Positions 10,046 to 59,948 of a DNA stretch of 64,000 bases are shown here, one piece after another (position 1 is the first letter of the stretch; every line of letters starts with the position of its first letter). The DNA is from Haloterrigena turkmenica DSM 5511 (GTDB lineage: Archaea; Halobacteriota; Halobacteria; Halobacteriales; Natrialbaceae). The notes beneath the pieces are model-generated. The model worked only from the letters and a program-made list of their open reading frames with translations. It was not told where the DNA came from and did no database searches. The position numbers and the translations under genes are program-made. The stretch is taken from positions 372,001 to 436,000 of the forward strand of contig NC_013744.1 in the NCBI RefSeq assembly GCF_000025325.1, read 5' to 3'.

Positions 10046-10214
10046 TTGGGGTCATCAAATCAGGAGCCTACAGCGGGGCTCAGTCGTTTCACCCCCCGAA
10101 AAACAACTTCCGCTGTGAGTACCAGAAAACGGTTCACATTATTCGTGTTCGGCATTCCCGAATCGGTCAGTACAGATATATACGTGGTCGGCCGTTACTA
10201 CTTTTCTATCTCGT

Positions 10215-13754: not shown

Positions 13755-13757
13755 TGC

Positions 13758-14498: not shown

Positions 14499-14499
14499 C

Positions 14500-17723: not shown

Positions 17724-17726
17724 AGG

Positions 17727-34379: not shown

Positions 34380-34828
34380 TGTTCAAGTAACCCTTTCGTC
34401 GCGTCGACTCTCGCCATCGCGAAACCGACTGGCTGAACGACACTATCGCTTGATAGTTACAGTCATCGACCGATTGTATTCGATCATCACGAGAGCGATG
34501 ATCGTTCCCGGGTAATACGGCTATTATCGCTGCGGTTCCCCGAATGCGGAGTCTCCGTCGGTCTGCAACGAGTTCCGCGATTATCGACTTTCCTTAATGC
34601 GGGGAACCGTTTTCAGAGATTCATTTCCTTGAGCGAAGGGAGTAGCAAGGTGACGTGCTACATTGGCGTGCTATGTCATGATAATTGGGTGCGGGTAGGA
34701 TGCCTGCGTGTAATAGATGCCGTCAATTCATACGTATGCGTTATAATATCGATTCTCCAGATGGCAAATACATGCGGCTTCGGCAATGATCACGCACCTT
34801 TATGGGTGAGATTCGCCTTGCACTGTAT
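34380..34828. other. intergenic, promoter of the IclR gene
   Basis: No gene was recognised. At 34797-34805 CCTTTATGG is a likely TATA box placed 28 nt before ATG 34829. The ATG inside this box (34802) would extend the IclR frame but is disfavoured. Confidence 0.45.
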
Positions 34829-35587
34829 ATGCCCGATTCTGGGGACTTCGACACGCGAAAAACGACTAAAACGTCACTCGCGATCGTCGAGGCGATCAAC
34901 GATTTGGACGGTGCAACACTGACCGAACTGGCTGACTACACCGGCCTCGCGACCAGTACGTTGCACACCCATCTCAAAACGCTTGAGGAAGCAGAGTACG
35001 TAACACGCAGCGGCAACACGTACAGACTCGGGCTACATCTTTTCCACATCGGGGAAAACGCTCGCCGGCGCGATCCCAGATACACCTTGGCCAGAGATAA
35101 GGCGTTCGAGCTCTCGAACGAAGTAAACGAGGAGGTGAGTTTCGCGGTCGAAGAGTACGGGCGGTCGATTATCCTATACGATGAAACGCCGGTGCCGTCG
35201 GACACTGGTTTTCAGGTCGGTCGCTACTTCCATATGCACAGTTCGGCGAGCGGAAAAGCGATGCTCGCAGCGTTCTCGACGGAACGGGTCTATGAAATCG
35301 TCGACAAGTGGGGCCTCCCAGAGTATACTGAGAATACGATCACCAACGTCGATGAGCTGTTCGACGAACTCGAGCGAGTCCGCGAGCAAGGATATGCGGT
35401 GAACCGACAGGAAGAACTCGAGGGGTTGTACTCGGTCGCGATGGTGATCAACAATCCGGACGGCTCAGTCTTCGGTTCGATGGACATCTCGGGACCCCCG
35501 TATCGTCTTCCCGAAGATAGCGAAATCGCCGCACAGTTGCGCCCCGTCGTTGGTGAACTCGAGTCGAAGCTCGAGAAGCGCGATTGA
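34829..35587 (+). CDS. IclR-family transcriptional regulator
   Basis: This 252-residue regulator has an N-terminal winged helix (TSLAIVEAINDLDGATLTEL, then GLATSTLHTHLKTLEEAEYV) and a C-terminal IclR effector domain at about residues 75-250 (GRYFHMHSSASGKAMLAAF, SVAMVINNPDGSVFGSMDIS). IclR proteins typically control catabolic operons in response to a small molecule. The neighbouring threonine dehydratase and glycine-cleavage genes are the natural targets. Two copies of a candidate operator (35588, 35648) lie directly downstream. The start at 34829 is chosen for its distance from the TATA box. Confidence 0.85.
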   Translation: MPDSGDFDTRKTTKTSLAIVEAINDLDGATLTELADYTGLATSTLHTHLKTLEEAEYVTRSGNTYRLGLHLFHIGENARRRDPRYTLARDKAFELSNEVNEEVSFAVEEYGRSIILYDETPVPSDTGFQVGRYFHMHSSASGKAMLAAFSTERVYEIVDKWGLPEYTENTITNVDELFDELERVREQGYAVNRQEELEGLYSVAMVINNPDGSVFGSMDISGPPYRLPEDSEIAAQLRPVVGELESKLEKRD

Positions 35588-35953: not shown

Positions 35954-37180
35954 ATGACTGTAACTCTCACTGACATCGAGGAAGCCCGAATCCGGTTAGA
36001 CGACGAATCAGCCGTTCAGCAGACCCCTATAGACACGAGTCGTTCACTCGAGGCGGAGACCGGTGCAACGGTTCTCCTCAAAATGGAGCACTTGCAGCGG
36101 ACCGGATCGTTCAAAGCTCGCGGCGCGTACAACAAGCTCAGACAGGTCGCCGAATCGGATCGCGAAGCCACGAGAGCGATCGCAGCGAGCGCCGGTAACC
36201 ACGCCCAAGGGGTCGCTCTCGCCGCTACGAAAACCGGTCTGGAATCGACCATCGTCATGCCCAAGAGCGCCCCACAGGCGAAGATAGACGCCACGGCCGA
36301 GTACGGGGCGAACGTCGAACTGCACGGACACGATTTTCGCGATGCGATGGCCTATGCGAAGTCGATCGTCGACGATGACAGCCTCTTCATCCACGCTTAC
36401 GACGATCCGCAGATCGTCGCTGGCCAGGGGACGGTGGGTCTCGAAATCCTCGAGCAGGTCCCGGATGTCCAGACAGTTGTCGTTCCGATCGGTGGCGGAG
36501 GGTTGATCGGCGGTATCGCGACCGCTATCAAGGAGCGATCGCCGGAGACGCGCGTGATCGGAGTTCAAGCCGAAGGGGCTGCTACCGTCCCGCAGAGCCT
36601 CGACAAGGGACAACCCCAGTCCGCCGAGACGGTTCAGACCATCGCCGACGGGATCGCTACCGGTGGAATTTCCCGACTCACGTACGAGTTGATCGACGAG
36701 TACGTGGACGAGGTAGTCACCGTCTCGGACACCGAGATCTCGGAGGCCATACTGTTCCTCCTGGAGCGAACGAAACAGATGGTCGAAGCGGCGGGCGCTA
36801 CGTCCGTCGCGGCGATCTGTAGCGACGAGGTCGACGTGAGAGACGAAACCGTCGTTCCGGTTCTCAGCGGGGGGAACCTCGGGTTGACGGACCTCCAGAC
36901 CGTGCTCACGCACGGACTGACATACCGGGATCAGCTCGTTCGGCTGCGAGTGCGGATCACGGACAACCCCGGGAAGATGGCAGACACCTCCGAAATAATC
37001 GCGAGTCACGGCGTCAACATCCACGACGTGAGCCACGAGCGGTCGGTCAAAGAGCTGAACGTCGGGGAAGCATACCTAGACTTCCGCATCGAGACGAACG
37101 GAGCCGATCAGACGAACCGTGTTATCGATTCGCTCCGCGAGGAGGGCTATACCGTCGCTCGGGTAAGAGACGAGTGCTAG
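35954..37180 (+). CDS. ilvA: threonine ammonia-lyase (threonine/serine dehydratase)
   Basis: The 408-residue PLP enzyme deaminates threonine to 2-oxobutyrate and usually serine to pyruvate. The PLP lysine is Lys54 in RTGSFKARGAYNK. The phosphate loop is VVVPIGGGGLIGGIA, and SAGNHAQGVALAA is also typical. A C-terminal ACT domain (about 325-405, LVRLRVRITDNPGKMADTSE) suggests amino-acid control. Its setting beside glycine cleavage, GlyA and RidA points to catabolism of serine/threonine rather than isoleucine synthesis alone. It is codirectional with gcvT, 58 nt upstream of it, but gcvT has its own promoter signal. Confidence 0.9.
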   Translation: MTVTLTDIEEARIRLDDESAVQQTPIDTSRSLEAETGATVLLKMEHLQRTGSFKARGAYNKLRQVAESDREATRAIAASAGNHAQGVALAATKTGLESTIVMPKSAPQAKIDATAEYGANVELHGHDFRDAMAYAKSIVDDDSLFIHAYDDPQIVAGQGTVGLEILEQVPDVQTVVVPIGGGGLIGGIATAIKERSPETRVIGVQAEGAATVPQSLDKGQPQSAETVQTIADGIATGGISRLTYELIDEYVDEVVTVSDTEISEAILFLLERTKQMVEAAGATSVAAICSDEVDVRDETVVPVLSGGNLGLTDLQTVLTHGLTYRDQLVRLRVRITDNPGKMADTSEIIASHGVNIHDVSHERSVKELNVGEAYLDFRIETNGADQTNRVIDSLREEGYTVARVRDEC

Positions 37181-37238: not shown

Positions 37239-38339
37239 GTGCCACTAAACAAGCCCCCTCTTCACGAAGTACATCGGGGTGCGGGCGCAGATTTCACCGA
37301 CTTCGGTGGCTGGGAGATGCCAGTGAAGTTCGATAGCATCCGATCTGAGCACGCCGCGGTACGCGAGTCAGTCGGTATCTTCGACGTCAGTCACATGAGC
37401 GAGGTAGTCGTCACGGGACCAGATGCCACGGCGATAATGGATCGCTTGACGACAAACGACGTCCAGACTCTCGATTCCGGGGACGCCCAGTATTCGTGTA
37501 TTCTCGACGAAGAGGGCGTAATCTTGGATGATACCGTCGTGTATCGGTACCCCGACGGAGACGGCTATCTGTTCGTTCCGAACGCCGGGCACGGCGAACA
37601 GATGGCCGAGCGGTGGTCGCAATACGCCAGCGAGTTCGGACTCTCGGTGACCGTCGAAAACCAGACCGACTCGACCGGACTGGTCGCCGTGCAGGGTCCG
37701 GACAGCGTCGAAACCGTCGAAGCCGTGACGAGCGATCCCGTCGGCGAACTTTCCCAGTTCTCCTGGAGGCAAACTGAAATCGCTGCGGTGGAGTGTCACG
37801 TCGCTCGAACGGGCTATACCGGTGAAGACGGATACGAGATCTTCTTCCCGGCGTCCGACTCAGAGGCTGTTTGGGAGGCGTTCGAGGATATCCAACCGTG
37901 CGGACTCGGTGCCAGAGATACGCTTCGACTAGAGGCCGGTCTCCTTCTGTCCGGCCAGGACTTCGATCCTGAGGACGAACCACGGACTCCGCTCGAAGCG
38001 GGCCTCGGATTCGTCGTCGATCTCTCGAAGGACGAGTTCGTCGGACGGGAGACGCTACAGGACCTCGAAGAAGCGGGCGTCGAAGAGCGCATGGTCGGGA
38101 TACGGATCGACGAGCGAGCTATCGCCCGTCACGGGTACTCGATACTCGCGGACGGGACGGAGATCGGGCACGTGACGAGCGGCACGATGGGCCCGACGCT
38201 GAACGTCCCGATCGCTCTGGGGTACGTCGAGACGCCCTTCGCAGAAACGGGAACCGAGATCGAAGTGGAAGTGAGAGGCGAACCCGTCGAGGCGACCGTC
38301 GTCGACCAGCGGTTCCTCGACTCACTCGAATCCAACTAA
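37239..38339 (+). CDS. gcvT: glycine cleavage system T protein
   Basis: The 366-residue aminomethyltransferase transfers the methylene group from the H-protein-bound intermediate to tetrahydrofolate (or the archaeal pterin) and releases ammonia. The N-terminus PPLHEVHRGAGADFTDFGGW EMP, the stretch ESVGIFDVSHMSEV and RTGYTGEDGYEIFF are family hallmarks. It starts at a GTG fixed by the TATA spacing. It is the first of four genes, gcvT-gcvH-gcvPA-gcvPB, with gaps of 12, 3 and -1 nt. Confidence 0.95.
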   Translation: MPLNKPPLHEVHRGAGADFTDFGGWEMPVKFDSIRSEHAAVRESVGIFDVSHMSEVVVTGPDATAIMDRLTTNDVQTLDSGDAQYSCILDEEGVILDDTVVYRYPDGDGYLFVPNAGHGEQMAERWSQYASEFGLSVTVENQTDSTGLVAVQGPDSVETVEAVTSDPVGELSQFSWRQTEIAAVECHVARTGYTGEDGYEIFFPASDSEAVWEAFEDIQPCGLGARDTLRLEAGLLLSGQDFDPEDEPRTPLEAGLGFVVDLSKDEFVGRETLQDLEEAGVEERMVGIRIDERAIARHGYSILADGTEIGHVTSGTMGPTLNVPIALGYVETPFAETGTEIEVEVRGEPVEATVVDQRFLDSLESN

Positions 38340-38351: not shown

Positions 38352-38726
38352 ATGTCATTCAACGTTCCGGAAGACCGACGATACACCGAATCGCACGAAT
38401 GGACCGAACCCCGAGACGACGTTGTTCGAATCGGCATCACTGATTTCGCCCAGGACGAACTCGGCGATATCGTCTTCGTCGAGTTGCCGGAGGTCGGCGA
38501 CGAGATTGAAGCGGGCGAGTCGTTCGGCATCGTCGAAAGCATCAAGGCGGTATCAGACATCTACGCGACCGTCTCAGGAGAGGTCGCGGCCGTGAACGAC
38601 GAGATCCGAGACCAGCCGGAACTCGTCAACGACGAGCCCTTCGATGGCGGCTGGTTGATTGAGATCGAAACGAACGACGACCTGGACCACCTTCTCAGTC
38701 CCTCCGAATACAGCGAGCAGATCTAG
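38352..38726 (+). CDS. gcvH: glycine cleavage system H protein
   Basis: The 124-residue lipoyl carrier shuttles the aminomethyl group between P, T and L proteins. The lipoylated lysine lies in [20 protein letters not shown] (Lys66). It starts [17 protein letters not shown] after a clear GGAGAG. The modification requires octanoyl transfer and lipoyl synthase. LipA is encoded at 45340, and the source of octanoyl-ACP is discussed among the findings. Confidence 0.95.
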
Positions 38727-38729: not shown

Positions 38730-40106
38730 ATGACGATACCGCCAGATTCGATAGACGTAGATCAGGTGCATCGCGACGATACGAGCGACGGGAGCCCGTT
38801 CGCTCCCCATGACGACTCCGAAGTCGAGGAGATGCTCGCCGCCGTCGGCGTCGATACCGCCGAGGAACTGTTCGACATCCCCGAATCAGTACGCTTCGAG
38901 GGGAGCTTCGACATCGACGGAGCGTCCGAGCAGCGTGTCAGGCAGCGGTTGCGAGAGACCGTTGAACAGAACGAAGACTACACGGAGTTTCTCGGTCGAG
39001 GTCACAACTCCCATTACGTCCCCTCGATCGTGGACCGCATCTCACTGCGCTCCGAGTTCCTCACGTCGTACACGCAGTACCAGCCGGAGATAACGCAGGG
39101 GTTCCTGCAGGTGCTCTTCGAGTACCAGTCCGTGATCGCCGAACTCACCGGACTAGACGTCGCGAACTGCTCGATGTACGACGCCGCGACGGCCCTCGGA
39201 GAAGCGGCCACGCTCGCCGACCGAAGCCGGCGAGCCGACGGGAACCGCGTTCTCGTACCGGATTATATGCGCGACACGCACCGCGACGTCCTCGAGAACT
39301 ACGTCGAGGGGACCGAACTCGTCGTCGAGGCGTTCGATACGGAGAACGGTCAGGTCAACCCGGAAACGCTCGAAAATGAACTCTCTGAGGACGTCGTATT
39401 GATCTACGTCGAGAATCCGACGATCGAGGGAGTCATCGAGGAGAATCTGACCGAGATCGGGGAACTCTCCGACGCGTACGGTGCCCTGTACTGCATCGGT
39501 TCGGATCCGGTCGCGCTCTCGTTGCTCCAATCGCCCGGGTCCGTCGGGGCCGACATGGTCGTCGGTGACGCGAGCGTCCTCGGGCTATCCACGGCCTACG
39601 GCATGGGACTGGGAATGTTCGCCTGTGACGAGGAGTTCCTCCGACAGGTCCCGGGCCGGTTAGTCGGCGCGTCTGAGGACAGCGACGGCACCCGCGCGTT
39701 CACTCTAACGCTCCAGACACGTGAGCAGCACATACGGCGTGAGCGAGCGACGAGCAACATTTGTACCAATCAGGCATGGGTCGCGCTTCGAACGGCGATT
39801 CACGCGGCTTCCCTGGGCCCGTCCGGGCTCGTCTCGCTGGCCGAGAAGTGCCACCGGCTGCCCGAGCGGGTCGCCGCCGAACTCGATGAGATCGACGGCG
39901 TCTCGGCCCCCGTCCGCGACTGCCATCACTTCCGCGAGTTCAAAGCACGCGTCGAGCCCGACGCACGGGAGCTCGCTGCGGACCTACGCGAGGAGGGAAT
40001 AGCGATTCACGCGCTCGGTTCCGACGAGATTCAGGTCTCGATCACTGACGTCAACGAACACCGGACGGACGACTTCGTTCAGGCGATCACGGAGGTGATG
40101 AACTGA
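38730..40106 (+). CDS. gcvPA: glycine dehydrogenase (decarboxylating) subunit 1
   Basis: This is the N-terminal-type half of the two-subunit P protein, 458 residues, one of the PLP-fold partners that decarboxylates glycine onto Gcv[41 protein letters not shown] and [18 protein letters not shown] are diagnostic. Archaea and many bacteria use this split arrangement. The stop overlaps the gcvPB start, so the two halves are coupled. Confidence 0.95.
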
Positions 40107-41530
40107 TGCAACGACACGACCAAACTGTCTGGAATGATACGGATGTCGACGGTTACGAACCGCTCCTCTCCGAGAAGGGGCTGAAGGAGGTCGAGATCGA
40201 CAGCGCGCTACCGGACGACCTCACGAGAGATTCGCTCGAACTACCGGAGCTGTCGGAGCCGGAACTCGCCCGTCATTACACGCGCCTCTCGCAGATGAAC
40301 TACGGCATCGACAGCGGCCCGTACCCGCTGGGGTCGTGTACGATGAAGTACAACCCCAAGTTCACCGAGGACGTCGCCGCGCTCCCGGCCGTGTCGGTCC
40401 ACCCGGACCGCGACGCTGAGAGTATTCAGGGGACCCTACAGGTGTTCGCCGAACTGCAGGAGTATCTGGCGGACATCGGCGGCATGGACACGGTGACGCT
40501 CCAGCCGCCGGCCGGCGCCGCCGGTGAGTTCACCGGCATCATGGTCGCGAAAGCTTATCACGAGTACAACGACGAGGGCGAGCAGCGCGACGAGGTCGTC
40601 GTACCGGCGAGCGCGCACGGTACGAACTTCGCCAGCGCCGCGATGGCCGGCTACGACGTGGTCGAACTCCCGCCCGGATCTGACGGCCGGGTCGACCTCG
40701 ACGCACTGTCGGCCGCGGTCGGAGACTCGACGGCGGCGTTGATGCTGACGAACCCGAACACGCTCGGATTGTTCGAGCGGGACATCGAGCGGATCGCCGA
40801 CATCGTCCACGAGGCCGGTGGGCTGTTGTACTACGACGGGGCGAATCTCAACGCGCTATTGGGGCGAGCTCGGCCCGGTGACATGGGATTCGACGTCATG
40901 CACTTCAACCTTCACAAGACGTTCGCGACGCCCCACGGCGGCGGCGGGCCGGGCGCCGGTCCGATCGGCGTGACCGAGGACCTCGAGGCGTTCCTGCCGA
41001 CGCCACAAGTGCGTGAACGTGACGGCCAGTACGACCTGGTCGAACCCGAACACACGATCGGCAAGGTGCACGGGGCGATGGGGAACTGGCTCGTCTTGCT
41101 CAAGGCACACGCGTATATCAGCCGACTCGGTGACAGTGGTCTCCGTGACACGAGTGAGAAAGCCGTGTTGAACGCGAACTACCTCGCTTCGCAGATCGAT
41201 CTGGAAATCCCGTTCGGGCCGTTCCACCACGAGTTCGTCGCCAGCGCCGGCGAACGCGACGCCGCTGACGTCGCGAAACGGATGCTCGACTACGGCGTCC
41301 ACCCACCGACGACCAAGTGGCCCGAGATCGTCCAGGAAGCGCTCATGACCGAGCCGACTGAGGCGGAGAGCAAGACGTCGCTCGACCAGCTCGCGGCCGC
41401 CTTCAATGCCGTGACCGAAGAAGGCGAGCAGACGCTCGCCGAAGCCCCGGAGAACACGTCCGCCCGACGTATCGACCAGACCAGCGCCGCCAGAAACCCA
41501 CAGCTCTCCTGGCACAGTCTGGACAGCTAA
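40106..41530 (+). CDS. gcvPB: glycine dehydrogenase (decarboxylating) subunit 2
   Basis: The 474-residue PLP-binding half of P protein has the cofactor lysine in FNLHKTFATPHGGGGPGAGP. YPLGSCTMKYNPKFTEDVAA and PPAGAAGEFTGIMVAKAYHE are conserved. It is the last gene of the gcv operon. The C-terminus ends RNPQLSWHSLDS. A 185-nt gap holding both terminators separates it from convergent glyA. Confidence 0.95.
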   Translation: MQRHDQTVWNDTDVDGYEPLLSEKGLKEVEIDSALPDDLTRDSLELPELSEPELARHYTRLSQMNYGIDSGPYPLGSCTMKYNPKFTEDVAALPAVSVHPDRDAESIQGTLQVFAELQEYLADIGGMDTVTLQPPAGAAGEFTGIMVAKAYHEYNDEGEQRDEVVVPASAHGTNFASAAMAGYDVVELPPGSDGRVDLDALSAAVGDSTAALMLTNPNTLGLFERDIERIADIVHEAGGLLYYDGANLNALLGRARPGDMGFDVMHFNLHKTFATPHGGGGPGAGPIGVTEDLEAFLPTPQVRERDGQYDLVEPEHTIGKVHGAMGNWLVLLKAHAYISRLGDSGLRDTSEKAVLNANYLASQIDLEIPFGPFHHEFVASAGERDAADVAKRMLDYGVHPPTTKWPEIVQEALMTEPTEAESKTSLDQLAAAFNAVTEEGEQTLAEAPENTSARRIDQTSAARNPQLSWHSLDS

Positions 41531-41715: not shown

Positions 41716-42966
41716 TTAGTCGTAGATGGGGAACTCGTCGGTCAGTTCGTCGACTCTGGCTTCGACCCGCTGGGCGACGTCACCGTCGTCCGGTTCGTCG
41801 AGGACGTCGACGATGAGGTTCGCCACCTCTTCCATCGCCGACTCGGTGAAGCCGCGCGTGGTCAGGGCCGGCGTCCCGACGCGGATCCCGCTGGTCACGA
41901 ACGGGGAGCGACTCTCGCCGGGGACCGTGTTCTTGTTGACGGTGATCCCGACCGCTTCGAGCGCGTTTTCGGCCTCCTCGCCGGTCAGGTCCGGATGTGA
42001 ATCGCGGAGGTCGATGAGGACGAGGTGTTTGTCGGTTCCGCCGCTGACCAGCGAGAGCCCGCGCTCGCTGAACGCGTCGGCGAGCGTTTTGGCGTTCGCG
42101 GCTATTTGCTCGGCGTACTCTCTGAACTCCGGTTGGAGGGCTTCTCCGAACCCTGCCGCTTTGCCGGCGATGTTGTGCATCAACGGGCCGCCCTGGCTGC
42201 CGGGGAAGATGGCGCTGTCGATGTCATCGGCGTACTCTTCTCCCGTGATAATCATCCCCCCGCGACCCGCCCGGATCGTCTTGTGCGTACTGCCCGTAAC
42301 GAAGTCCGCGACGCCGACCGGGTTCGCGTGAACGTCGGCCGCGATGAGCCCCGTGACGTGCGCGATGTCCGCGAGGTGATAGGCGTCCACGTCCGCCGCG
42401 ATGGAACTGATCCGTTCGTACTCGAACTCACGCGGGTAGGCCGAGGACCCGCTGACGATCACGTCCGGTTCGAAGTCCAGCGCCTTCTGCTCCAGTTCGT
42501 CGTAATCGACGTATCCCGTCTCGGGGTCGACGCCGTACTGCTCGACCTCGTAGAGCTGGCCGGAGAAGTTCACGTGATGGCCGTGCGAAAGGTGCCCCCC
42601 GTGGTTGAGGTTCAACGAGAGGATCTTGTCGCCGGGATCGAGCATGGCGAAGTAGACGCCCATGTTCGCCTGCGTCCCGCTGTGGGGCTGGACGTTCACG
42701 TGGTCGCCGCCGAACAGTTCCTTCGCCCGTTCGATCGCGAGATTCTCGGCCTCGTCGACGTGTTCGCACCCGCCGTAGTAGCGTGCACCCGGATATCCCT
42801 CCGCGTACTTGTTAGTGAGGACGCTCCCCTGGGCCTCGAGGACGGCCTTCGAGACGTGATTCTCCGATGCGATCATCTCCAGGTTGTCTTCCTGACGCCG
42901 TTCCTCGGCGCTAATCGCCTCGTAAAGTCGCTCGTCGGTGTCTGCGAGCTGACTGCTGTCAGACAT
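41716..42966 (-). CDS. glyA: serine hydroxymethyltransferase
   Basis: The 416-residue PLP enzyme interconverts serine and glycine with a pterin one-carbon carrier. The active-site lysine is in VTGSTHKTIRAGRGG; EMIASENHVSKAV, YPGARYYGGCEHVDEAE and VQPHSGTQANMGVYFAML are family signatures. It is convergent to the gcv operon. A TTATTATAAT box about 25 nt upstream implies a leaderless transcript. Together with the glycine cleavage system it links serine, glycine and one-carbon pools. Confidence 0.95.
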   Translation of the reverse strand: MSDSSQLADTDERLYEAISAEERRQEDNLEMIASENHVSKAVLEAQGSVLTNKYAEGYPGARYYGGCEHVDEAENLAIERAKELFGGDHVNVQPHSGTQANMGVYFAMLDPGDKILSLNLNHGGHLSHGHHVNFSGQLYEVEQYGVDPETGYVDYDELEQKALDFEPDVIVSGSSAYPREFEYERISSIAADVDAYHLADIAHVTGLIAADVHANPVGVADFVTGSTHKTIRAGRGGMIITGEEYADDIDSAIFPGSQGGPLMHNIAGKAAGFGEALQPEFREYAEQIAANAKTLADAFSERGLSLVSGGTDKHLVLIDLRDSHPDLTGEEAENALEAVGITVNKNTVPGESRSPFVTSGIRVGTPALTTRGFTESAMEEVANLIVDVLDEPDDGDVAQRVEARVDELTDEFPIYD

Positions 42967-43090: not shown

Positions 43091-43468
43091 ATGCGAATCA
43101 TCGAGACAGACGCCGCTCCGGCAGCCGTCGGCGCGTACAGTCAGGCGACGACGAACGACGACCTCCTCTTCACGGCCGGGCAAATCCCGGCGACGCCTGA
43201 CGGCGAGTTGAAAAACGAGACCTCGATCGAGGAACAGACAGAACTGGTCCTGGACAACCTGCGGGCCATTCTCGAGGAAGAGGGGCTCGGTCTGGAGGAC
43301 GTCCTCAAAACGACGGTCTTCCTCGCGGACATCGATGACTTCGACGCCATGAACGAGGTGTACGGCTCGTACTTCGACGAGAGTCCGCCTGCACGCAGCG
43401 CAATCGAGGTCGGGAACCTGCCCAAAAACGTCAGCGTCGAGATCGAGGCGGTCGCGGCGCGGTCGTGA
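43091..43468 (+). CDS. ridA: RidA family enamine/imine deaminase
   Basis: The 125-residue Rid protein hydrolyses reactive enamines such as 2-aminoacrylate formed by serine/threonine dehydratases. AVGAYSQATTNDDLLFTAGQ IPATPDG and the arginine-containing PARSAIEVGNLPKNVSVEIE (substrate-binding Arg) identify it. A CTTTTACC box at 43057 is about 31 nt upstream. Its location beside the threonine dehydratase and GlyA matches its protective role. Confidence 0.93.
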   Translation: MRIIETDAAPAAVGAYSQATTNDDLLFTAGQIPATPDGELKNETSIEEQTELVLDNLRAILEEEGLGLEDVLKTTVFLADIDDFDAMNEVYGSYFDESPPARSAIEVGNLPKNVSVEIEAVAARS

Positions 43469-43690: not shown

Positions 43691-45100
43691 ATGACCGATC
43701 GTCGCACTGACGTGCTCGTCGTCGGCGCCGGGCCGGCCGGCTATACGACCGCGATACGGCTGGGACAGCTCGGCATCGACGCGACGCTCGTCGAAGCCGA
43801 CGCCCACGGCGGAACCTGCCTAAACAGGGGTTGCATCCCGTCGAAGGCCATCATCTCGGCCGCATCGGTCGCACACGAGGCCCGCACGAGCGAGGAGATC
43901 GGCATCACGGCGGAGGTCGACGTGGACTTCGAGCAGTTCACTCGCTGGAAGGACCGCGTCGTACGCCGTATGGGGAAGGCCGTCGAGAAACTCTGTAAGG
44001 CGAACAACGTCGATCTCGTCGAAGGCCGTGCGGTGTTCGAGGACCGCCACGTCGCGCGCGTTCTCGACGGCGACGGTACTGAGCTCGAACGGGTCGAATT
44101 CGACTACGCCGTCCTCGCGACGGGGAGTCGTCCCGTCGAACTTCCCGGATTCGAGTACGATCACCCGTCAGTCCTCGACGCTGCCGATGCGCTCTCGCTG
44201 TCGAGCCTGCCGAACAGCCTGGTCGTCATCGGTGCCGGCTATATCGGCATGGAACTGTCGACGGCGTTCGCGAAGCTCGGCGTAGACGTGACCGTCGTCG
44301 AGGCGCTGGAGTCGATGCTCCCCGGCTTCCCACCGGCGCTCGTCGAACCGGTCGAGTCGCGTGCCGGGGAACTCGGTATCGACTGCCACTACAAGCAACT
44401 GGCTCAGGACTGGCGGGAAACCGATGCGGGCCTCGTCCTCGAGACAGAGTCGGCTGACGGCCAGGACCAGTTCGAGCACGAGGCCGAGGCCGTCCTCGTC
44501 GCAGTCGGACGCGAACCGGTCACCGACACGATGAATCTCGACGCGATCGGCCTCGAACCGAACAACGACGGGTTCCTCGAGACGGACGACCAGTGTCGGA
44601 CCGACGTTCCGCACGTGTTCGCCGTCGGAGACGTCGCGGGCGAGCCGATGCTGGCACACAAGGGTAGTGCCGAGGGCGAGGTCGCGGCCGAGGTCATCGC
44701 CGGTCGAACGGCGTCGTTTGCCGACCGCGCAGTGCCGTCCGTGGCGTTCACGGCGCCGGAGCTCGCGACCGTCGGTCAGACCGTCCAGGAGGCCGAAGAT
44801 GCCGGGCACAATCCGATCCAGGGCGAGTTCCCCCTCCGAGCCAGCGGCCGTGCTCTCACGACGGGCCACACTGACGGCTTCGCGCGCATCGTTGCGTCCG
44901 AGGACGGGCGCGTCCTCGGCGGCCAGGTCGTCGGACCGGAAGCGTCCGAACTGATAGCCGAGATTGCGCTCGCGGTCGAACAGGAACTGCCCGTCGAAGC
45001 GCTCGCCGAAACGATCCACGCGCATCCGACCATGGCCGAGTCGGTTCACGAGGCGTCGGCGAACGCACTCGGCCGTGCGATTCACACGCTGAACAGGTGA
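43691..45100 (+). CDS. lpdA: dihydrolipoyl dehydrogenase
   Basis: The 469-residue FAD-disulfide oxidoreductase reoxidises the dihydrolipoyl arm of GcvH (L protein) or of 2-oxoacid dehydrogenases. The FAD site is VLVVGAGPAGYTTAIRLG, the redox disulfide GGTCLNRGCIPSKA, the NAD site VVIGAGYIGMELSTAFAKLG and the C-terminal His-Glu pair HAHPTMAESVHEASANAL. Its position between gcv/glyA and lipA suggests service to glycine cleavage. lipA follows after 239 nt with its own TATA-like box. Confidence 0.95.
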   Translation: MTDRRTDVLVVGAGPAGYTTAIRLGQLGIDATLVEADAHGGTCLNRGCIPSKAIISAASVAHEARTSEEIGITAEVDVDFEQFTRWKDRVVRRMGKAVEKLCKANNVDLVEGRAVFEDRHVARVLDGDGTELERVEFDYAVLATGSRPVELPGFEYDHPSVLDAADALSLSSLPNSLVVIGAGYIGMELSTAFAKLGVDVTVVEALESMLPGFPPALVEPVESRAGELGIDCHYKQLAQDWRETDAGLVLETESADGQDQFEHEAEAVLVAVGREPVTDTMNLDAIGLEPNNDGFLETDDQCRTDVPHVFAVGDVAGEPMLAHKGSAEGEVAAEVIAGRTASFADRAVPSVAFTAPELATVGQTVQEAEDAGHNPIQGEFPLRASGRALTTGHTDGFARIVASEDGRVLGGQVVGPEASELIAEIALAVEQELPVEALAETIHAHPTMAESVHEASANALGRAIHTLNR

Positions 45101-45339: not shown

Positions 45340-46275
45340 ATGAGTCGTACTGGCAAGCCCGAGTGGCTAAAGATGCGGCCGCCGTCGGGCGAGCGGTTCA
45401 CCGACATCAAAGAGACGCTCCGGGAGCGAGACCTCAACACGGTCTGTGAGGAAGCCAATTGTCCGAACCTCGGCGACTGCTGGTCGGGGCGCAACGGCCC
45501 CGGCACGGCGACGTTCATGCTGATGGGTGAGCGCTGTTCGCGGGGGTGTAACTTCTGTGACGTCGAGACCGGCGGCATGGAGCCCCTCGACCCGAAGGAA
45601 CCCCAGCAGGTCGCCGCGGCCGTCGCAGACATCGGCCTGGACTACGTCGTCTTGACCAGCGTCGACCGGGACGACTTGCCCGATCAGGGCGCGGGCCATT
45701 TCGCCGAAACCATCCGCGAAATCAAAGACCGGGACCCGGGCATCCTCGTCGAGGTGCTCATTCCCGATTTCCAGGGCGAGGAACGCCTCGTCCGGAAGAT
45801 TATCGACGCGGATCCGGACGTTATCGCGCACAACGTCGAGACCGTCCAGCGGTTACAACGGCCAGTCCGGGACCGGCGAGCGAGCTACGAGCAATCGCTG
45901 TCGGTGCTCCGGCAGGTCCACCGCGAATCCGACATCTACACGAAATCCTCGCTCATGCTCGGGGTCGGCGAATACGCCCACGAAGTCTACCGGACGCTCG
46001 CGGACTTGCGGGCAGCGGGCGTCGACGTGGTGACGCTGGGCCAGTACCTCCGGCCCTCCCTGTCGCACTTGGAAGTCGACGAGTACGTCCACCCCGACGC
46101 CTTCGACACGTGGCAACGCGTCGCCGAGGAGGAATTGGGCTTTCTGTACTGCGCGTCGGGCCCGATGGTCCGCTCCTCGTATCGAGCGGGGGAGCTGTTC
46201 GTCGATGCCCTCCTTCAGGACGGCAAATCCGTCGCCCAGGCCCGCCGCGAAGCGCGGGCGAAAGCGGACCAGTGA
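45340..46275 (+). CDS. lipA: lipoyl synthase
   Basis: The 311-residue radical-SAM enzyme inserts two sulfurs into protein-bound octanoyl chains. The auxiliary cluster motif is CEEANCPNLGDCW (Cys36, 41, 47), the radical-SAM motif CSRGCNFCD (Cys66, 70, 73), and the C-terminal serine ligand lies in GPMVRSSYRAGE. All ligands are present, so it should be active. Its substrate is octanoyl-GcvH. No LipB or LplA gene is seen in the window, so the octanoyl transferase must be encoded elsewhere. Confidence 0.95.
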   Translation: MSRTGKPEWLKMRPPSGERFTDIKETLRERDLNTVCEEANCPNLGDCWSGRNGPGTATFMLMGERCSRGCNFCDVETGGMEPLDPKEPQQVAAAVADIGLDYVVLTSVDRDDLPDQGAGHFAETIREIKDRDPGILVEVLIPDFQGEERLVRKIIDADPDVIAHNVETVQRLQRPVRDRRASYEQSLSVLRQVHRESDIYTKSSLMLGVGEYAHEVYRTLADLRAAGVDVVTLGQYLRPSLSHLEVDEYVHPDAFDTWQRVAEEELGFLYCASGPMVRSSYRAGELFVDALLQDGKSVAQARREARAKADQ

Positions 46276-46355: not shown

Positions 46356-47036
46356 TTAGTTCGAGCTGTTACCAAACCACTCTTCGAACATCGCACCGAA
46401 CGATTGGGCGGTCGGAAGATGTAATCCGGATCGAACAGCATACAACCGAGTACCGACCGTGACGCTCGCGCACAACGCAGCAGCAACGCTCTCGGCTCCG
46501 AAACCGACAGCGACTACCCAATAGGTACACCCGCCCAGTACCGCACAACTCGCGTAGAAATCGGTCACCAGAATGAACGGCGATCGATCCAACAGGATAT
46601 CAGCGAACGCACCGCCACCGACCGCGTTGATCGTGGCGATGGCGACGACTCCGAAGCTCGAAACGCCAGCGTCTACCGCCACGATCGCGCCCGTGGTCGT
46701 AAACGCTGCCAGACCGACTGCATCTGAAATCACCGTTATCGGATGATCGTCCGGAGAGGACAGAACGCGATGTAATCCGATAGCGAGGCTAACGCCGATC
46801 ACTCCGAGACTGATCTCCCCCATCGAACTCAGCGCGAGCGGAATCCGATTGACGAGAACGTCTCGAGTCGCACCGCCGGCGAAGGCCGTGGCGAGGCCGA
46901 CGACAGTGATCCCGAATAGATCGAATTCCTCGCGGATCGCCTTCGCGGATCCGACCAAGGCGAACGCGACTAACCCGATCGAGTTCATAATCGCGAACGG
47001 GTCCATCAGTAGGTGACGTAGGAACTCTTCTGCCAC
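46356..47036 (-). CDS. TRIC/UPF0126 family membrane channel
   Basis: The 226-residue protein has about seven hydrophobic segments in two related halves, each with the glycine-rich kinked motif of the family: AFAGGATRDVLVNRIPLALS and NAVGGGAFADILLDRSPFIL. Prokaryotic TRIC homologues form trimeric potassium-permeable channels. UPF0126 members were earlier annotated as YicG. It is monocistronic and convergent to lipA. No regulatory feature was recognised. Confidence 0.85.
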   Translation of the reverse strand: MAEEFLRHLLMDPFAIMNSIGLVAFALVGSAKAIREEFDLFGITVVGLATAFAGGATRDVLVNRIPLALSSMGEISLGVIGVSLAIGLHRVLSSPDDHPITVISDAVGLAAFTTTGAIVAVDAGVSSFGVVAIATINAVGGGAFADILLDRSPFILVTDFYASCAVLGGCTYWVVAVGFGAESVAAALCASVTVGTRLYAVRSGLHLPTAQSFGAMFEEWFGNSSN

Positions 47037-47580: not shown

Positions 47581-48663
47581 CTACTCTCCGCTGGTCCGTT
47601 GGGCGATGTATTCGCGCGTTTCTCCCTGCAACACGTACTCCGTATGCTGAAGGTCTGGGATTGACTTCGAACCGGTGACAAACATTGCTGTCCGTAGCTC
47701 GGCGATCAGATCCTCAACTCGCTCAATGACAGCGTCCGAGCCGTTAGTGGCCGGATTCAGGAACGGTTTTGCCAACCCACCGGCGAGTGCACCTAACGCG
47801 ATCGCTTTTGCTACGTCCAATCCCGTCCGTACACCGCCGCTCGCAATTACGCAGTCGTGTTCGGCGACACACTCGGTCGTGCTCGCAGCGGTCGGGATTC
47901 CCCACTCCCGGAACAGCGCACCGATTCGTTTCTGCCGCGGTGCGTTCGCCGCAGCCGCGCGGTAGGCCTCGATCCCGGACCACGTCGTACCGCCTTTTCC
48001 AGCGACATCGATCGCGTCAACGCCTACCTCGGATAGCTTTCGGGCAGTCTCTCCTGAAATTCCGTTACCCGTTTCTTTAACGATGATCGGCACAGAGAGA
48101 TCCTCAACTACTCGTTTGATGGCCGCCAGACAGTCCCGGCCGTCGACGTCGCCTTCGGGTTGGACGGCTTCTTGGAGGAAGTTCAGGTGGACTGCGAGCG
48201 CGTCCGCCTCGATCATCTCCACTGCGCGCTCAACCGTTTCGAGATCGTACTCTCGAAGTTGTGCTGCACCAAGATTTCCATAGATGAACGCGTCGGGTGC
48301 GGCGTCACGGACGACGGTATACGATTCGAGGACGCCGTTATCGTCGAGCTCGAGGCCCGCTCGCTGGCTTCCGAGCCCCATCGCGATGCCCGTCTCGCCG
48401 GCAGCGCGAGCCAGTGCACGATTGATTTCTGTAGTGTTTTGATGCCCCCCGGTCATGCTTTCGATGAAGATCGGAGCGGATAACTCGTGGTCCAGAAATT
48501 CGACGGACGTATCGATAGCGTCGTAATGGAGTTCCGGAAGCGCTTCGTGGACGAGCTGGACGTCTTCGAAGCCCGTTCCCGTGGTTTCGACGTCCCGTTC
48601 CTGAACGATCCGAATGTGGTCGTCTTTTCGATCTTCGGTCTCCGACGAGGGCCGTTCTGTCAT
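47581..48663 (-). CDS. fni: type 2 isopentenyl-diphosphate delta-isomerase
   Basis: The 360-residue FMN- and NADPH-dependent enzyme interconverts IPP and DMAPP for archaeal isoprenoid lipids. [16 protein letters not shown] is the N-terminal signature; [15 protein letters not shown] and [14 protein letters not shown] bind FMN and substrate; [22 protein letters not shown] and the phosphate-binding [19 protein letters not shown] follow. ATG 48663 is preferred to 48690 because the conserved start lies nearby. It stands alone. Confidence 0.92.
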
Positions 48664-48969
48664 TACTATACCTTGCGAAAGGGGTTGCAAAACAGTACTG
48701 TTTTATTGATTCGATTCTGCCCTATCGTTCCACTAAACGAAGAGTAGTCTATGGCCGGCTACGCGCCCTAGCTCTTGTACGACACTCCGAATAGCATCTG
48801 AAACAGGGAGGGGGCAACGGTCAGTCCGCACTCGTCAGCGACCGGCTATATCATACGATTTTGTGTCTGGAGAATGAAATCTCAACAGAGCCTTTTGATT
48901 ATACCGCTGCAAGGTCATGGCATTGTCGGTATATTTCGTGAAAAGAGATCCGTGTCTCACTACCACCAT
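48664..48969. other. intergenic
   Basis: The minus-strand fni promoter probably uses the ACTGTTTTATTGAT stretch near 48693-48706. Nothing else was recognised. Confidence 0.4.
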
Positions 48970-48979
48970 TTTTATATAT
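48970..48979 (+). promoter_or_regulatory. TATA box of the DUF5058 operon
   Basis: TTTTATATAT is centred about 27 nt before ATG 49001. This sets a leaderless start and rules out the longer frame beginning at 48917, which would lie upstream of the promoter. Confidence 0.6.
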
Positions 48980-49000: not shown

Positions 49001-49750
49001 ATGGAGTGGTGTGAACCTCCGATAGCCGTACTGGCATATATGGATATCGCCAATAGTCGATGGTTGTGGCTTTCGACTCTACCGGTCGTCTCGGTAGTGT
49101 TGTTTCAGGCGGCGATCTTTCTCCGTCGAGCGTGGGCCGATGGAAAGGAAATGGGATTGTCAGACGAACAACTAAAGACCGGGTTCAAGACCGGGGTGAT
49201 ATCGGCGATCGGTCCCGCCGTAGCGGTCTTGGTCGGAATGTTGGCGCTGATAGCCACCGTCGGCGGACCCGTCGCATGGATGCGTCTCACGGTGATCGGA
49301 TCGGTCGCGTTCGAACTCCCGGCGGCTGAGCTGGGCGTGAGCCAGTTTGGATACAGTCTCGGTGACGGAGATATCTCTGAGACGGCGTATGCGACGGCAG
49401 TCTGGTCGATGACTCTGGGTGGCACTGGCTGGTTGCTGGTCTCCGCCCTCGGAACGCCGCATATGGAAAAGGCCAGACAGAAGCTTGGCAACGGGAAAGA
49501 AAAACTCATTCCGATCATTAGTTCCGCCGCGATGCTCGGGGCCTTCGCCTATTTCCTGACCGGTGAAGTCGCGGCGGGAACGCCCGAAACGGGATCGGTC
49601 GCCGTAGGGGGATTGGTGATGCTGGTGCTGTTACGGATAGCCGATAAGAGAGATATACAATGGTTACGAGAATGGGCGCTGGGTACCGCGATGATCGTCG
49701 GTCTCCTGGTCGGAGTGGTACTGCAAGTGACGGTCGGGAGTTGGTGGTAA
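49001..49750 (+). CDS. DUF5058 family membrane protein
   Basis: The 249-residue integral membrane protein has about six hydrophobic segments. WLSTLPVVSVVLFQAAIFLR RAW and the cytoplasmic GLSDEQLKTGFKTGVISAIG PAVAVLVG are typical of DUF5058; MDIANS at 49040 corresponds to the usual family start. It is followed after 1 nt by another membrane protein and then an M20 amidohydrolase, a conserved-looking trio. Presumably it is half of an uncharacterised transporter whose substrate is hydrolysed by the M20 enzyme. The function is inferred from context only. Confidence 0.8.
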   Translation: MEWCEPPIAVLAYMDIANSRWLWLSTLPVVSVVLFQAAIFLRRAWADGKEMGLSDEQLKTGFKTGVISAIGPAVAVLVGMLALIATVGGPVAWMRLTVIGSVAFELPAAELGVSQFGYSLGDGDISETAYATAVWSMTLGGTGWLLVSALGTPHMEKARQKLGNGKEKLIPIISSAAMLGAFAYFLTGEVAAGTPETGSVAVGGLVMLVLLRIADKRDIQWLREWALGTAMIVGLLVGVVLQVTVGSWW

Positions 49751-49751
49751 G

Positions 49752-50504
49752 ATGTCTGAAAGTGAGATCGATACCAACGTTGCAGACGGCTCAGACAGTA
49801 GCAAAGACGTGTACGAGAACGATTTCGTCCCGTATATCAATAAATGGGGGCGGAGGACGAACCTCCTCGCCGTAGCACTCTCGTTCGGTCCCGCAGTGGC
49901 CCTACTAACGGTGTTTGGTATTCTCCCGCCGACACAGGCGGTCATCGGTGCGTTCATCTCGGTCGCGGCGACGTACGGTATCTTTTGGCTGGTCGAACCG
50001 CTCTCGTATTACCCCGTATTGGGGATCCCGGGTACGTATATGGCGTTCCTGTCCGGGAACATCTCTAACCTGCGATTGCCCTGCGCTGCCGCTGCCCAGG
50101 AGAGCGCGGACGTACAAACCGGGACGCCACAGGGAAGCATCATCTCGACGATCGCGATCGCCGCATCGATCGCCGTTAATACGACGCTGCTGGGTGTCGG
50201 GGCGTTCGCCCTCGTTTCCGCGTTCCAAGCGCTCCCTGCCCTGTGGCAGAACGCGCTCGACTCGTACCTCGTCCCGGCGGTGTTCGGCGCGATCTTCGCA
50301 CAGTTCGGACGTGACTATCCGAAAGTGGCAGGTGTCGGGTTCACGCTGGCACTGGCGATGACGACGCTGTTAGAACTCGGATTCCTCAACTTCCTTCCCG
50401 GATATCCACTCTATGTGGTGATAATCGTCTCCGTCTTCGGAACGATCCTGATCGCGCGATGGATGTGGGAGAACGGGATGATCCACCCACCGGACGATTC
50501 GTGA
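49752..50504 (+). CDS. membrane partner of DUF5058
   Basis: The 250-residue protein has an acidic cytoplasmic N-terminus, then hydrophobic segments (LLAVALSFGPAVALLTVFGI, AVIGAFISVAATYGIFWLV, TIAIAASIAVNTTLLGVGAF, and two more), with the conserved-looking loop PLSYYPVLGIPGTYMAFLSG NISNLRLP between them. The gene starts 1 nt after the DUF5058 stop, so the two subunits are probably made together. The glycine-proline-rich PGTYMAF loop could line a substrate path. I do not recognise a named family for it. Confidence 0.65.
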   Translation: MSESEIDTNVADGSDSSKDVYENDFVPYINKWGRRTNLLAVALSFGPAVALLTVFGILPPTQAVIGAFISVAATYGIFWLVEPLSYYPVLGIPGTYMAFLSGNISNLRLPCAAAAQESADVQTGTPQGSIISTIAIAASIAVNTTLLGVGAFALVSAFQALPALWQNALDSYLVPAVFGAIFAQFGRDYPKVAGVGFTLALAMTTLLELGFLNFLPGYPLYVVIIVSVFGTILIARWMWENGMIHPPDDS

Positions 50505-50562
50505 GCGGTAGTAACAATCAAGGAGCTTCGAAGAAACGAGATATACGCTGAATCACAACCCT

Positions 50563-51846
50563 ATGCCAACGGAAACGATATCCCCATCGGAAGCGGACCT
50601 GAAGGAGTGGAGACTGGAGTTTCACCGGTATCCGGAACCCGGCTGGTGTGAGTTCCGAACGACCGTACGGATCGTCGAGGAACTCGAACAGTTGAACGTC
50701 GACGAGATCCACATCGGGGCGGACGCTCTCGATCCCGACGAGCGATTGGGAGTTCCTGAGGAGGACGTACTTTCGGAGTGGTACGAGAAAGCGACGTCTG
50801 AAACGAACCGTACGGACGTGTTAGAGCAGATTCAAGGCGGTCATACGGGGGTCGTCGCGGTCGTCGAGAACGGTGAGGGTCCGACCGTCGGATTACGTGT
50901 CGACATCGACGCGCTTCCCATCACCGAATCGGCTGACGACGATCATCGGCCAGCGTCCGACGGCTTTCGATCGACTAATGAAGGGTTTATGCACGCATGT
51001 GGCCACGATTCCCACATTACATTCGGGTTAGGAACGATTCAGTCGGTTATTCAGAGGGATTTCAGTGGGACATTTAAAGTCTTCTTCCAACCAGCAGAGG
51101 AACTCCTCGGCGGTGGAAAAGCGATGGCTTCGGGTCCCCACATTGACGACGTCGACTATCTGTTCGGAGCCCACGTCGGCCTCGATTATCCGACAGGGAC
51201 GGTCGTTGCCGGACTCGATGAAGCGCTCGCCCTCGCCCGAATGGACGTCACGTTCGAGGGCGAATCTGCCCACGCAGGGTTGGCTCCGAACGAAGGACGG
51301 AACGCGGTCCAAGCGCTCATCGCCGCTGCTCATAACATCTACGCGACCCCTCGCCACAGGGAGGGGAAAACGCGCGTGAACATCGGGGAAATCAGCGCGG
51401 ACAACGCCGCGAATATCATCGCTGACCGAGCAACCGCGTCGATCGAGGTTCGTGGCGAGTCGACCGAACTGATGGAGTATATGCGCGACGCCGTGCAGCG
51501 ACACGTAAACACGGCGGCGGAGATGCACGAGTGTGACGCCGAAATCTCTCTCACCGGGGAATCGATACGACAGGACTGCGATGGAGAACTCGTGGACCTG
51601 GTGAGTGAGACGGTAACTGATCGGTCGGAGTCGCTCTCACTGATTCGACGCGACGCCTTGGCCGCGAGCGAGGACGCCATGTACTTGATGAAGGCCGTGA
51701 CGGAGAACGGTGGCAAGGCGACGTACATCGGCATCGGCGGGAGCAATCCCAGTGGCCACCATACCCCGAAGTTCGATATCGATGAGGAGAGCCTCTCGAT
51801 CGGTGTGGAGGTGCTTTCGAAGTCCGTTCTGAAACGCCTCTCTTAG
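50563..51846 (+). CDS. M20 family amidohydrolase
   Basis: The 427-residue metal-dependent hydrolase belongs to the aminoacylase/aminobenzoyl-glutamate-utilisation type. The metal-binding motif GFMHACGHDSHITFGLG and the later AEELLGGGKAM (catalytic Glu) are present. The dimerisation domain contains SAHAGLAPNEGRNAVQALIA AAHN, and the last ligand region is IGGSNPSGHHTPKFDIDEES. It cleaves an amide-linked amino acid or related conjugate. Its operon with two membrane proteins suggests import and hydrolysis of the same compound. An insertion at about residues 45-90 is longer than in simple aminoacylases. Confidence 0.85.
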   Translation: MPTETISPSEADLKEWRLEFHRYPEPGWCEFRTTVRIVEELEQLNVDEIHIGADALDPDERLGVPEEDVLSEWYEKATSETNRTDVLEQIQGGHTGVVAVVENGEGPTVGLRVDIDALPITESADDDHRPASDGFRSTNEGFMHACGHDSHITFGLGTIQSVIQRDFSGTFKVFFQPAEELLGGGKAMASGPHIDDVDYLFGAHVGLDYPTGTVVAGLDEALALARMDVTFEGESAHAGLAPNEGRNAVQALIAAAHNIYATPRHREGKTRVNIGEISADNAANIIADRATASIEVRGESTELMEYMRDAVQRHVNTAAEMHECDAEISLTGESIRQDCDGELVDLVSETVTDRSESLSLIRRDALAASEDAMYLMKAVTENGGKATYIGIGGSNPSGHHTPKFDIDEESLSIGVEVLSKSVLKRLS

Positions 51847-51872: not shown

Positions 51873-52886
51873 TCAGTTCTGTCCTTCACTGCACAGATTC
51901 TCGAGTTTAGCGGCAGCTTCGCCCGAATCAATCGCTTCGCGAGCGCAATCGACGCCCGCCCGTACTGTCTCTGTGAGACCGGCGACATATACTGTCGCAC
52001 CCGCATTTGCGAGAACGATGTCACGCATCGGGCCCGTTATCGACCCTGTGACGATCCCGCGAAGAGCTGCTGCGTTCTCCGCCGGCGTCCCTCCCGAAAC
52101 CGCCTCGATACCACTATGGTCCAGTCCGAGCGTTTCCGGAGTGATTACGTACTCTTCGATCGACTCGCCGGTGACTTCGGCGACGCTCGTTTCCCCATGG
52201 ATCGTGATCTCGTCGATTCCCTGACCGTGGACGACGAGTGCACGGTCAACCTCGAGGCGGGCTAACACCCTGGCCAGAACCGGCACCAGATCCTGATCGT
52301 AGACGCCGACTACTTGTGCGTCGGCTCCGGCAGGATTGGTGAGCGGTCCGAGAACGTTGAAGATCGTCCGGACTCCGAGTTCCTTCCGCGGACCGATAAC
52401 GGTCTCCATTGCCGGATTGAATACTGGTGCGAGCATGAATCCGATTCCGTTTCGTTCGATCGCGGCTTCGACGGCGTGCGGTTCCGAATTGGTGTCGACG
52501 CCGACGACATCCAGAACGTCGGCGCTTCCTGACGACGAGGAGACCGAGTAGTTGCCGTGCTTGGCGACTGCCGTACCCGCCCCCGCCGCAACGATCGCGC
52601 TGGTTGTCGAGACATTGATCGTGTTGTAACTGTCCCCGCCGGTGCCACAGATGTCAACTAGCGGCGACCGATCGGGATCAATCGTTCGCATCGTGTTGCG
52701 CATCCCCTGAGCGAACCCAGCGATCTCGGCTTCTGTCTCACCTTTCGTGCGGAGCGCAGCGAGTACCGCACCGATCTGTGCCTCTGTAGCCTCTCTGAAG
52801 AGTAGCTGAGCAACCTCGCGCGCTCCATCGATAGTGAGGTCGTCTCCGGCGGTTATTCGATCCAAATAGACTCCAATATCATCCAT
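51873..52886 (-). CDS. trpD: anthranilate phosphoribosyltransferase
   Basis: The 337-residue enzyme joins anthranilate and PRPP in tryptophan synthesis. The PRPP site is DICGTGGDSYNTINVSTTSA, followed by VAKHGNYSVSSSSGSADVLD, FMLAPVFNPAMETVIGPRKE LG and VRTIFNVLGPLTNPA. A CATATACTA box about 25 nt upstream suggests a leaderless transcript. It lies alone: no other trp gene is in the window, so it may be a dispersed member or an extra copy. An M20 hydrolase converges on it. Confidence 0.93.
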   Translation of the reverse strand: MDDIGVYLDRITAGDDLTIDGAREVAQLLFREATEAQIGAVLAALRTKGETEAEIAGFAQGMRNTMRTIDPDRSPLVDICGTGGDSYNTINVSTTSAIVAAGAGTAVAKHGNYSVSSSSGSADVLDVVGVDTNSEPHAVEAAIERNGIGFMLAPVFNPAMETVIGPRKELGVRTIFNVLGPLTNPAGADAQVVGVYDQDLVPVLARVLARLEVDRALVVHGQGIDEITIHGETSVAEVTGESIEEYVITPETLGLDHSGIEAVSGGTPAENAAALRGIVTGSITGPMRDIVLANAGATVYVAGLTETVRAGVDCAREAIDSGEAAAKLENLCSEGQN

Positions 52887-59600: not shown

Positions 59601-59948
59601 CTCGACCATACAGGTCCGACACTCGCTTCGAGGGCCAATCTCCTCGCTCGCCGAACCGTCCCGGTCGTAGTGACACAGCGCGGGCACGTCGGCGTCGCTC
59701 TCGAGGCCGTTGGCGCCCGGATCGACGGAGACCGTCTCGTCGTCAGCGGCCTGCATCGCGTCGATGACGGTCGATCCGGGCGGAACGGTCACCGACTGCC
59801 CGTTGATCGAGAGCGTCGTCGGTTCATCGCTGGCCGTACCGGCGGGGGGATCGTTCGCAGTGCCCGTCTCGAACGTCGCTGTCACTGGCGTCTCGTCCCG
59901 TCGATCGTCGATTGTCGGTATTCGTGGAAGTGGATCGTACGTACTCAT
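56616..59948 (-). CDS. fused NuoG-N/formate dehydrogenase alpha subunit
   Basis: The 1110-residue protein combines the modules that are two genes in the first operon. Residues about 40-330 hold the [2Fe-2S] ferredoxin (GPRSECRTCMVETEEHG), the His-Cys box (NHNLRCTTCNGNGRCELQ) and two [4Fe-4S] motifs (CILCNRCVEGC, CVSCGHCATVCP). A Gly/Ala/Asp-rich linker follows. From about 375 comes the molybdopterin enzyme with TTCGFCAVGCRFEM, CVKGKFGHEF and the active site NCARLCHSSTVAA (Cys in place of selenocysteine). FRGQNNVQGGGGDMGTLP supports formate dehydrogenase. The start overlaps the NuoF-like gene's stop by 4 nt. There is no DUF1641 gene nearby. Confidence 0.88.
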   Translation of the reverse strand: MSTYDPLPRIPTIDDRRDETPVTATFETGTANDPPAGTASDEPTTLSINGQSVTVPPGSTVIDAMQAADDETVSVDPGANGLESDADVPALCHYDRDGSASEEIGPRSECRTCMVETEEHGLVPSCSFPAEDGLSVRTDTPDAAESRSVNLDLVLSNHNLRCTTCNGNGRCELQDAAISEGVDHPRYGVFDERSEYEPIDDTSSFIQIDRNKCILCNRCVEGCNDVQVEGVLRIEGHGEDTRIGFQSDAETMADSECVSCGHCATVCPTGALTEKGIGGPGTLPLPGFTHRNSIGTVVETDEAETIDDTTAPNRSPDPGSAASPTNAVGGDDAAEARVARFMERAKDRVAELASEYGHRAVLAGEHTAENIATKTLPEGRLFDIADFVSDVRLENLDVEETTCGFCAVGCRFEMWSKDGDTIGTVPVDDPSAAPANNFSTCVKGKFGHEFANSDRRLTEPLVRTDSGEFESVSWDDALEYVAERLREIQNEHGVDAVSCLASSKGTNEEAYLVQKFARQVLGTKNVDNCARLCHSSTVAALQQTLGYGAMTNRINEDVGEADAYLITGSNTTESHPVLATRIKQNVRDGADLVVFDPRQVGIAEHADQYTRTEPGYDVAWINGLIRYVIENDLHDEAFIERNTTGFEDLREKVRPYTPERVEEVAGVPAAELESAAETLAAADTVVFGWAMGMTQSSHGTQNILALANLALTLGQLGKPGAGLSPFRGQNNVQGGGGDMGTLPGSLPGYQDPSDGEVREKFADAWGEHPPAEPGLKVPEMFSEAHEGNLRGMYIVGENPALSEPDVQHAGEALEALDFLVVQDIFMTETAEHADVILPAATSPEKHGTFTNTERRIQRVRPTAAPPGDARQDWEITQELANRLGYDWDYDHPREIMDEISDLAPIYGGVSYDRLEEGPQHGLQWPVPDEDHPGTPYLYDYEDGNFNFEDGRARFVPADSGQPGEIPDEDYPLTLTSGRVLYHWHTGQLTRRVEGLMSHVGESFVEIHPELAARLDVTDGEYVRVESRRGEIVVKAQVTERVDAGTLFIPMHFAAGAVNKLTQETFDPQSGIPEYKVSSVRVEPLGPETDADVLRTPDVGAATDGAAISDD

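Follow-up and report, generated by a model that had tools for sequence, protein, structure and literature searches.

Two adjacent membrane proteins of Haloterrigena turkmenica DSM 5511, one of them belonging to the DUF5058 family, appear on balance to be the obligate subunits of a permease that would import small N-acyl amino acids, and the putatively cytosolic amidohydrolase encoded next to them would split these compounds; in this archaeon the amino acid set free would most likely be glycine. The three genes (the trio) lie in the 64,000-nt stretch of DNA analyzed here (the window), where they close an island whose upstream part consists of glycine-catabolism genes (Table 1).

Table 1 The trio and the glycine island in the window (positions count from the first letter of the window).
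Feature	Position	Strand	Evidence
IclR-type regulator	34802..35587	+	PF01614, E 1e-26; recurs near the trio in haloarchaea
Threonine/serine ammonia-lyase	35954..37180	+	TIGR01127, 452 bits, over cut-off
gcvT	37239..38339	+	Profile from annotated gcvT genes
gcvH	38352..38726	+	Profile from annotated gcvH genes
gcvPA, glycine cleavage P protein subunit 1	38730..40106	+	PF02347, E 1.5e-105
gcvPB, glycine cleavage P protein subunit 2	40106..41530	+	Profile from annotated gcvPB; PF02347 partial match
glyA, serine hydroxymethyltransferase (SHMT)	41716..42966	-	PF00464, E 9.4e-158
RidA	43091..43468	+	PF01042, E 3.5e-40
lpdA, dihydrolipoyl dehydrogenase (L protein)	43691..45100	+	Syntenic annotated copy in Haloterrigena sp. 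KLK7
lipA, lipoyl synthase (lipoate for GcvH)	45340..46275	+	Syntenic annotated copy in Haloterrigena sp. KLK7
UPF0126/glycine transporter family	46356..47036	-	PF03458, E 5.4e-34
TATA box of predicted leaderless trio promoter	48970..48979	+	Conserved across almost all 17 aligned haloarchaeal loci
DUF5058 membrane protein, proposed permease subunit 1	49001..49750	+	PF16481, E 3e-77; helical AF2 model, mean pLDDT 82.7
Partner membrane protein without database family, proposed permease subunit 2	49752..50504	+	No Pfam/NCBIfam match; adjoins DUF5058 in 86/87 loci; AF2 mean pLDDT 83.7
AbgA-type M20D amidohydrolase, proposed cytosolic splitting enzyme	50563..51846	+	TIGR01891, 260 bits; 3io1, E 3.5e-90

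The ORF coordinates agree with the earlier note on this DNA, which had described two polytopic membrane genes 1 nt apart and an M20 gene 58 nt further on. The same order and spacing are found again in several haloarchaeal families and in bacteria, so the arrangement is not due to chance. The note had also placed the trio under one leaderless promoter. The ATG at 49001 is preceded at ~27 nt by a TTTATAT box, which is conserved in nearly all of the 17 aligned haloarchaeal relatives, and the gap between the partner and M20 genes carries no conserved TATA box; one leaderless transcript is therefore plausible, promoter and transcript both being predicted. In annotated relatives DUF5058 starts at a Met 13 codons downstream (49040 in the window), and both this Met and the ATG at 49001 are possible starts. 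The trio is bracketed by genes for a type 2 isopentenyl-diphosphate isomerase (47581-48690) and a stand-alone TrpD-like protein of glycosyl-transferase family 3 (51873-52886), neither of which stands beside the trio in most other haloarchaea.

Scanning genome contigs with a DUF5058 alignment yielded 208 relatives, and the best 80 of these were surveyed together with nine plasmid loci. The locus counts are profile hits on stop-to-stop frames, a simple ORF caller being prone to miscall antisense ORFs in GC-rich loci, and they describe this sample only, which is rich in Arthrobacter. Among these best 80 relatives and nine plasmid loci, the partner adjoined DUF5058 in 86 of the 87 testable loci, and an M20 gene lay within 2.6 kb of DUF5058 in 78 of 88. 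The surveyed groups with the pair were haloarchaea, Actinobacteria, Firmicutes, Proteobacteria and Synergistota. Five of the ten loci without M20 carried an amidase-signature gene; one M20-less locus, cut by a contig end, held the CoA-transferase and carboxylase genes that often come after M20. The sole locus without a separate partner (L063) is on a metagenome contig, where the two frames are joined with loss of sequence. On this Tissierellia contig the start of DUF5058 and the end of the partner share one frame (9328-10206), which may reflect a deletion, a natural fusion or a misassembly.

The association also held outside these counts. Two Firmicute genomes have three DUF5058 copies each, and the trio was present in all five loci examined there. 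A reciprocal search of 248 genomes from one actinobacterial order found DUF5058 over the cut-off in 22 and the partner in the same 22, the two genes being neighbors every time. DUF5058 itself is patchy, occurring in 3 of 295 genomes of the window's phylum. Pairwise tree distances correlated closely between DUF5058 and the partner (r = 0.98; bacteria alone, 0.97) and less so between DUF5058 and M20 (r = 0.75); the congruence of the DUF5058 and partner trees is partly shared inheritance and is no proof of contact. Damaged copies were also seen: in a second DUF5058 locus of Natronococcus jeotgali (L087, 10001-12900) ~1.7 kb of probably inserted sequence splits the partner gene, and in a pair on a Vibrio diabolicus plasmid (L012, 5962-7423), which sits between transposase genes, the DUF5058 frame is broken. 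The neighborhood survey suggested in the earlier note, run here across archaea and bacteria, thus upheld the association of DUF5058 with both partner and M20; the homologues do not generally lack the two, the outcome that the note had named as speaking against its proposal. That proposal, uptake by two subunits followed by hydrolysis, appears to be the best fit to the neighborhood and co-occurrence data.

The window's DUF5058 protein matched PF16481 with 259.6 bits (curated cut-off 28.2) over profile positions 1-222 of 222. AF2 models, computed from alignments without proteins from plasmid records, were helical and confident for both membrane proteins (pTM 0.67 for DUF5058 and 0.59 for the partner) and were alike in helix order. 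Despite this likeness, no homology between the two was detectable (hhalign probability 1.7). Foldseek and VIA-align searches of the PDB gave no convincing match to a solved structure for either model; the best VIA rows span the last two helices only (Z 6.5, 55 residues, rmsd 4.1), and we draw no claim from them. The ion transporter superfamily fold was not among the Foldseek and VIA matches, and a missing match does not exclude that fold. The moderate pTM values and the obligate pairing would suit two complementary halves.

The pair fits a known kind of system, a split permease tied to an amide hydrolase. DUF969 and DUF979 are proposed half-transporters, and a Campylobacter mutant of their locus loses growth on 5-oxoproline (PMC11467057, PMC12795558). 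This 5-oxoproline transporter resembles the trio in its two adjacent polytopic genes tied to an enzyme of amide metabolism. Compared by sequence family, the two systems differ, however: neither subunit nor any of 47 partner homologues matched the DUF969/DUF979 Pfam families, and the enzyme partner is another one. E. coli yjiH-yjiG-iadA likewise consists of two small membrane proteins, overlapping or adjacent, and then a dipeptidase, but the similarity of the partner to YjiH was weak (P 0.003 against the single protein) and weakened further against the YjiH profile (P about 0.1). Kinship to the Gate proteins YjiG/YjiH was a weak lead that faded under profile comparison.

The hydrolase of the window contains Peptidase_M20 and M20_dimer and scored 260.2 bits against TIGR01891 (cut-off 153.75). 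Its closest solved relative is the AbgA-like Klebsiella protein 3io1 (306 bits, against 101 for the next), to which the metal-site motifs CGHD, EE and a C-terminal His (HH) aligned and were identical. The protein showed no hydrophobic segment, and hydrolysis following import is thus the natural interpretation. AbgA-type M20 hydrolases were present in 15 of 16 haloarchaeal trios, the window's included, with 62-97% identity to that of the window; the exception was Natronococcus jeotgali L086. Bacterial trio M20s fall on other branches, with at most about 34% identity. Firmicute trios have an ArgE/DapE-type M20, often together with a CpsA-like M20D, and an amidase is added in 30 of the 47 sampled actinobacterial loci. 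The hydrolase was exchanged between lineages while the pair stayed, being AbgA-type in haloarchaea and of other M20 types, with amidases, in bacteria. The best indication that the pair would handle amide-linked compounds is its company: several unrelated amide-splitting enzymes stand beside it. In Leucobacter and Arthrobacter (L052, L055, L011), genes for a CaiB-type CoA-transferase and a fused AccD/AccA-like carboxyltransferase lie downstream of M20; their products might process the released acid, e.g. a dicarboxylic acyl group.

AbgA is a subunit of p-aminobenzoyl-glutamate hydrolase (PGH), and its closeness to the window's M20 would also suit the same two-subunit importer carrying, in haloarchaea, p-aminobenzoyl-glutamate, which is a fragment of folate, or a different aroyl amino acid, with the nearby glycine cleavage (GCS) and SHMT genes serving folate C1 metabolism. 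We consider this substrate distinctly unlikely. E. coli PGH requires both AbgA and AbgB (PMC5082436), whereas no second M20 gene adjoins the AbgA-type gene in the window (other TIGR01891 genes are located elsewhere in the genome), and the AbgT permease (PF03806) was searched for and not found in the genome, although control genomes were positive. UPF0126, RidA, the ammonia-lyase, LipA and LpdA, moreover, suit amino-acid catabolism and not folate salvage. The E. coli AbgA-AbgB-AbgT system is still comparable to the trio in combining a permease with an AbgA-type M20 for cytosolic cleavage of an acyl amino acid, but the trio has one M20 instead of two, and its permease would be made of two unrelated small proteins.

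The earlier note mentioned neither the AbgA type of the hydrolase nor the glycine island, the latter narrowing the likely substrate. GCS genes were found within 10 kb of the trio in 11 of 17 haloarchaeal loci, in at least five arrangements that differ in strands and orders. By our own estimate a random gene would lie this close to GCS genes in ~1% of cases (a ~5 Mb genome with two GCS loci, as here), and perhaps in 5% on a large plasmid. The genome has a second GCS P locus elsewhere, on contig C1, and further SHMT copies, so the GCS set of the island looks dedicated. UPF0126 genes were near the trio in 8 of the 17 haloarchaeal and 4 of the 47 actinobacterial loci sampled. UPF0126 proteins have been reported as important for the utilization of glycine by 11 bacteria (PMC12173739); the member in the island, from a protein family separate from the pair, backs the link to glycine, whereas the role of conjugate importer is proposed for the pair. 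Actinobacterial trios with GCS genes nearby were those of two Rhodococcus loci and one Arthrobacter locus (A. subterraneus), a fourth count (L034), a lone gcvT-like gene, not being relied on; the loci bearing UPF0126 were four others of the Arthrobacter group, distinct from the GCS-bearing ones. As DUF5058 and M20 of these glycine-linked loci fall in the actinobacterial clade, the link arose separately in Actinobacteria.

The pair might instead import short peptides or amide compounds generally, the glycine link being one local use or a result of catabolic islands gathering on large plasmids. The variety of enzymes (M20D, ArgE/DapE-type, amidase) agrees with so broad a role, as do five haloarchaeal copies borne on plasmids and the sampled bacterial trios, most of which have no glycine genes nearby. 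We nevertheless regard it as unlikely: the haloarchaeal linkage survives through at least five arrangements and has a separate origin in Actinobacteria. N-acyl amino acids remain our preferred substrates. Since most bacterial trios lack glycine genes, the family overall probably serves several kinds of these compounds, and the haloarchaeal substrates are probably glycine conjugates. Hippurate as the specific substrate is disfavored: Halomicroarcula rubra F13, whose locus L071 carries the trio and GCS, reportedly uses none of hippurate, benzoate and glycine as its sole source of carbon (PMC8600319). Because glycine itself is among these, such compounds may still serve as nitrogen source.

We therefore propose a mechanism in which DUF5058 and the partner would be obligate subunits of one secondary permease, each forming a half of ~250 residues, that would bring in small N-acyl (amide-linked) amino acids; transport, its direction, subunit contact and substrate are what we infer from the comparisons above. 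The co-expressed cytosolic amidohydrolase would split the imported conjugate and would be interchangeable, an AbgA-type M20D in haloarchaea and another M20D, an ArgE/DapE-type M20 or an amidase-signature enzyme in bacteria. In the window's archaeon the released amino acid would most likely be glycine, which the second, dedicated GCS together with LipA, LpdA, SHMT, RidA and serine/threonine ammonia-lyase would convert to CO2, NH3, C1-folate, serine and pyruvate, and UPF0126 would handle free glycine. The opposite direction deserves mention. AsnC/Lrp-type regulators, which often control amino-acid exporters, flank 34 of the 47 sampled actinobacterial loci, and AzlCD is a two-gene exporter. That the pair expels the amino acid or acid set free by the hydrolase, or works as a relief valve, is nonetheless very improbable in our judgment: beside the hydrolase, no importer other than the pair is conserved, and the membrane pair is constant while the hydrolase family changes.

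No paper was found for DUF5058 by name in the literature searched, and both protein families, the lineage-specific exchange of enzymes and the glycine island appear to be undescribed as far as checked. The pair may tentatively be seen as founding a transporter family of its own for amide-conjugated amino acids, with a novel heteromeric fold, which archaea would share with several bacterial phyla and which each lineage would combine with an amide-splitting enzyme of its own, although we would give this wider claim somewhat less than even weight. The importer proposed here would provide a testable function for a domain of unknown function and for a partner family without database entry, and would be a second kind of split permease that travels with amide hydrolases, alongside DUF969/DUF979. 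It suggests a route for the uptake of conjugated amino acids, a mostly uncharacterized step, in some haloarchaea, Rhodococcus and amino-acid fermenters.

The glycine island is flanked in the window by two sets of NAD-type formate dehydrogenase genes (11799-19214 and 56616-61468), each with a molybdopterin subunit and NuoF/NuoE-like parts, and in Halobellus limi a molybdopterin oxidoreductase gene lies just downstream of the trio. The flanking formate dehydrogenases could oxidize C1 units from glycine cleavage.
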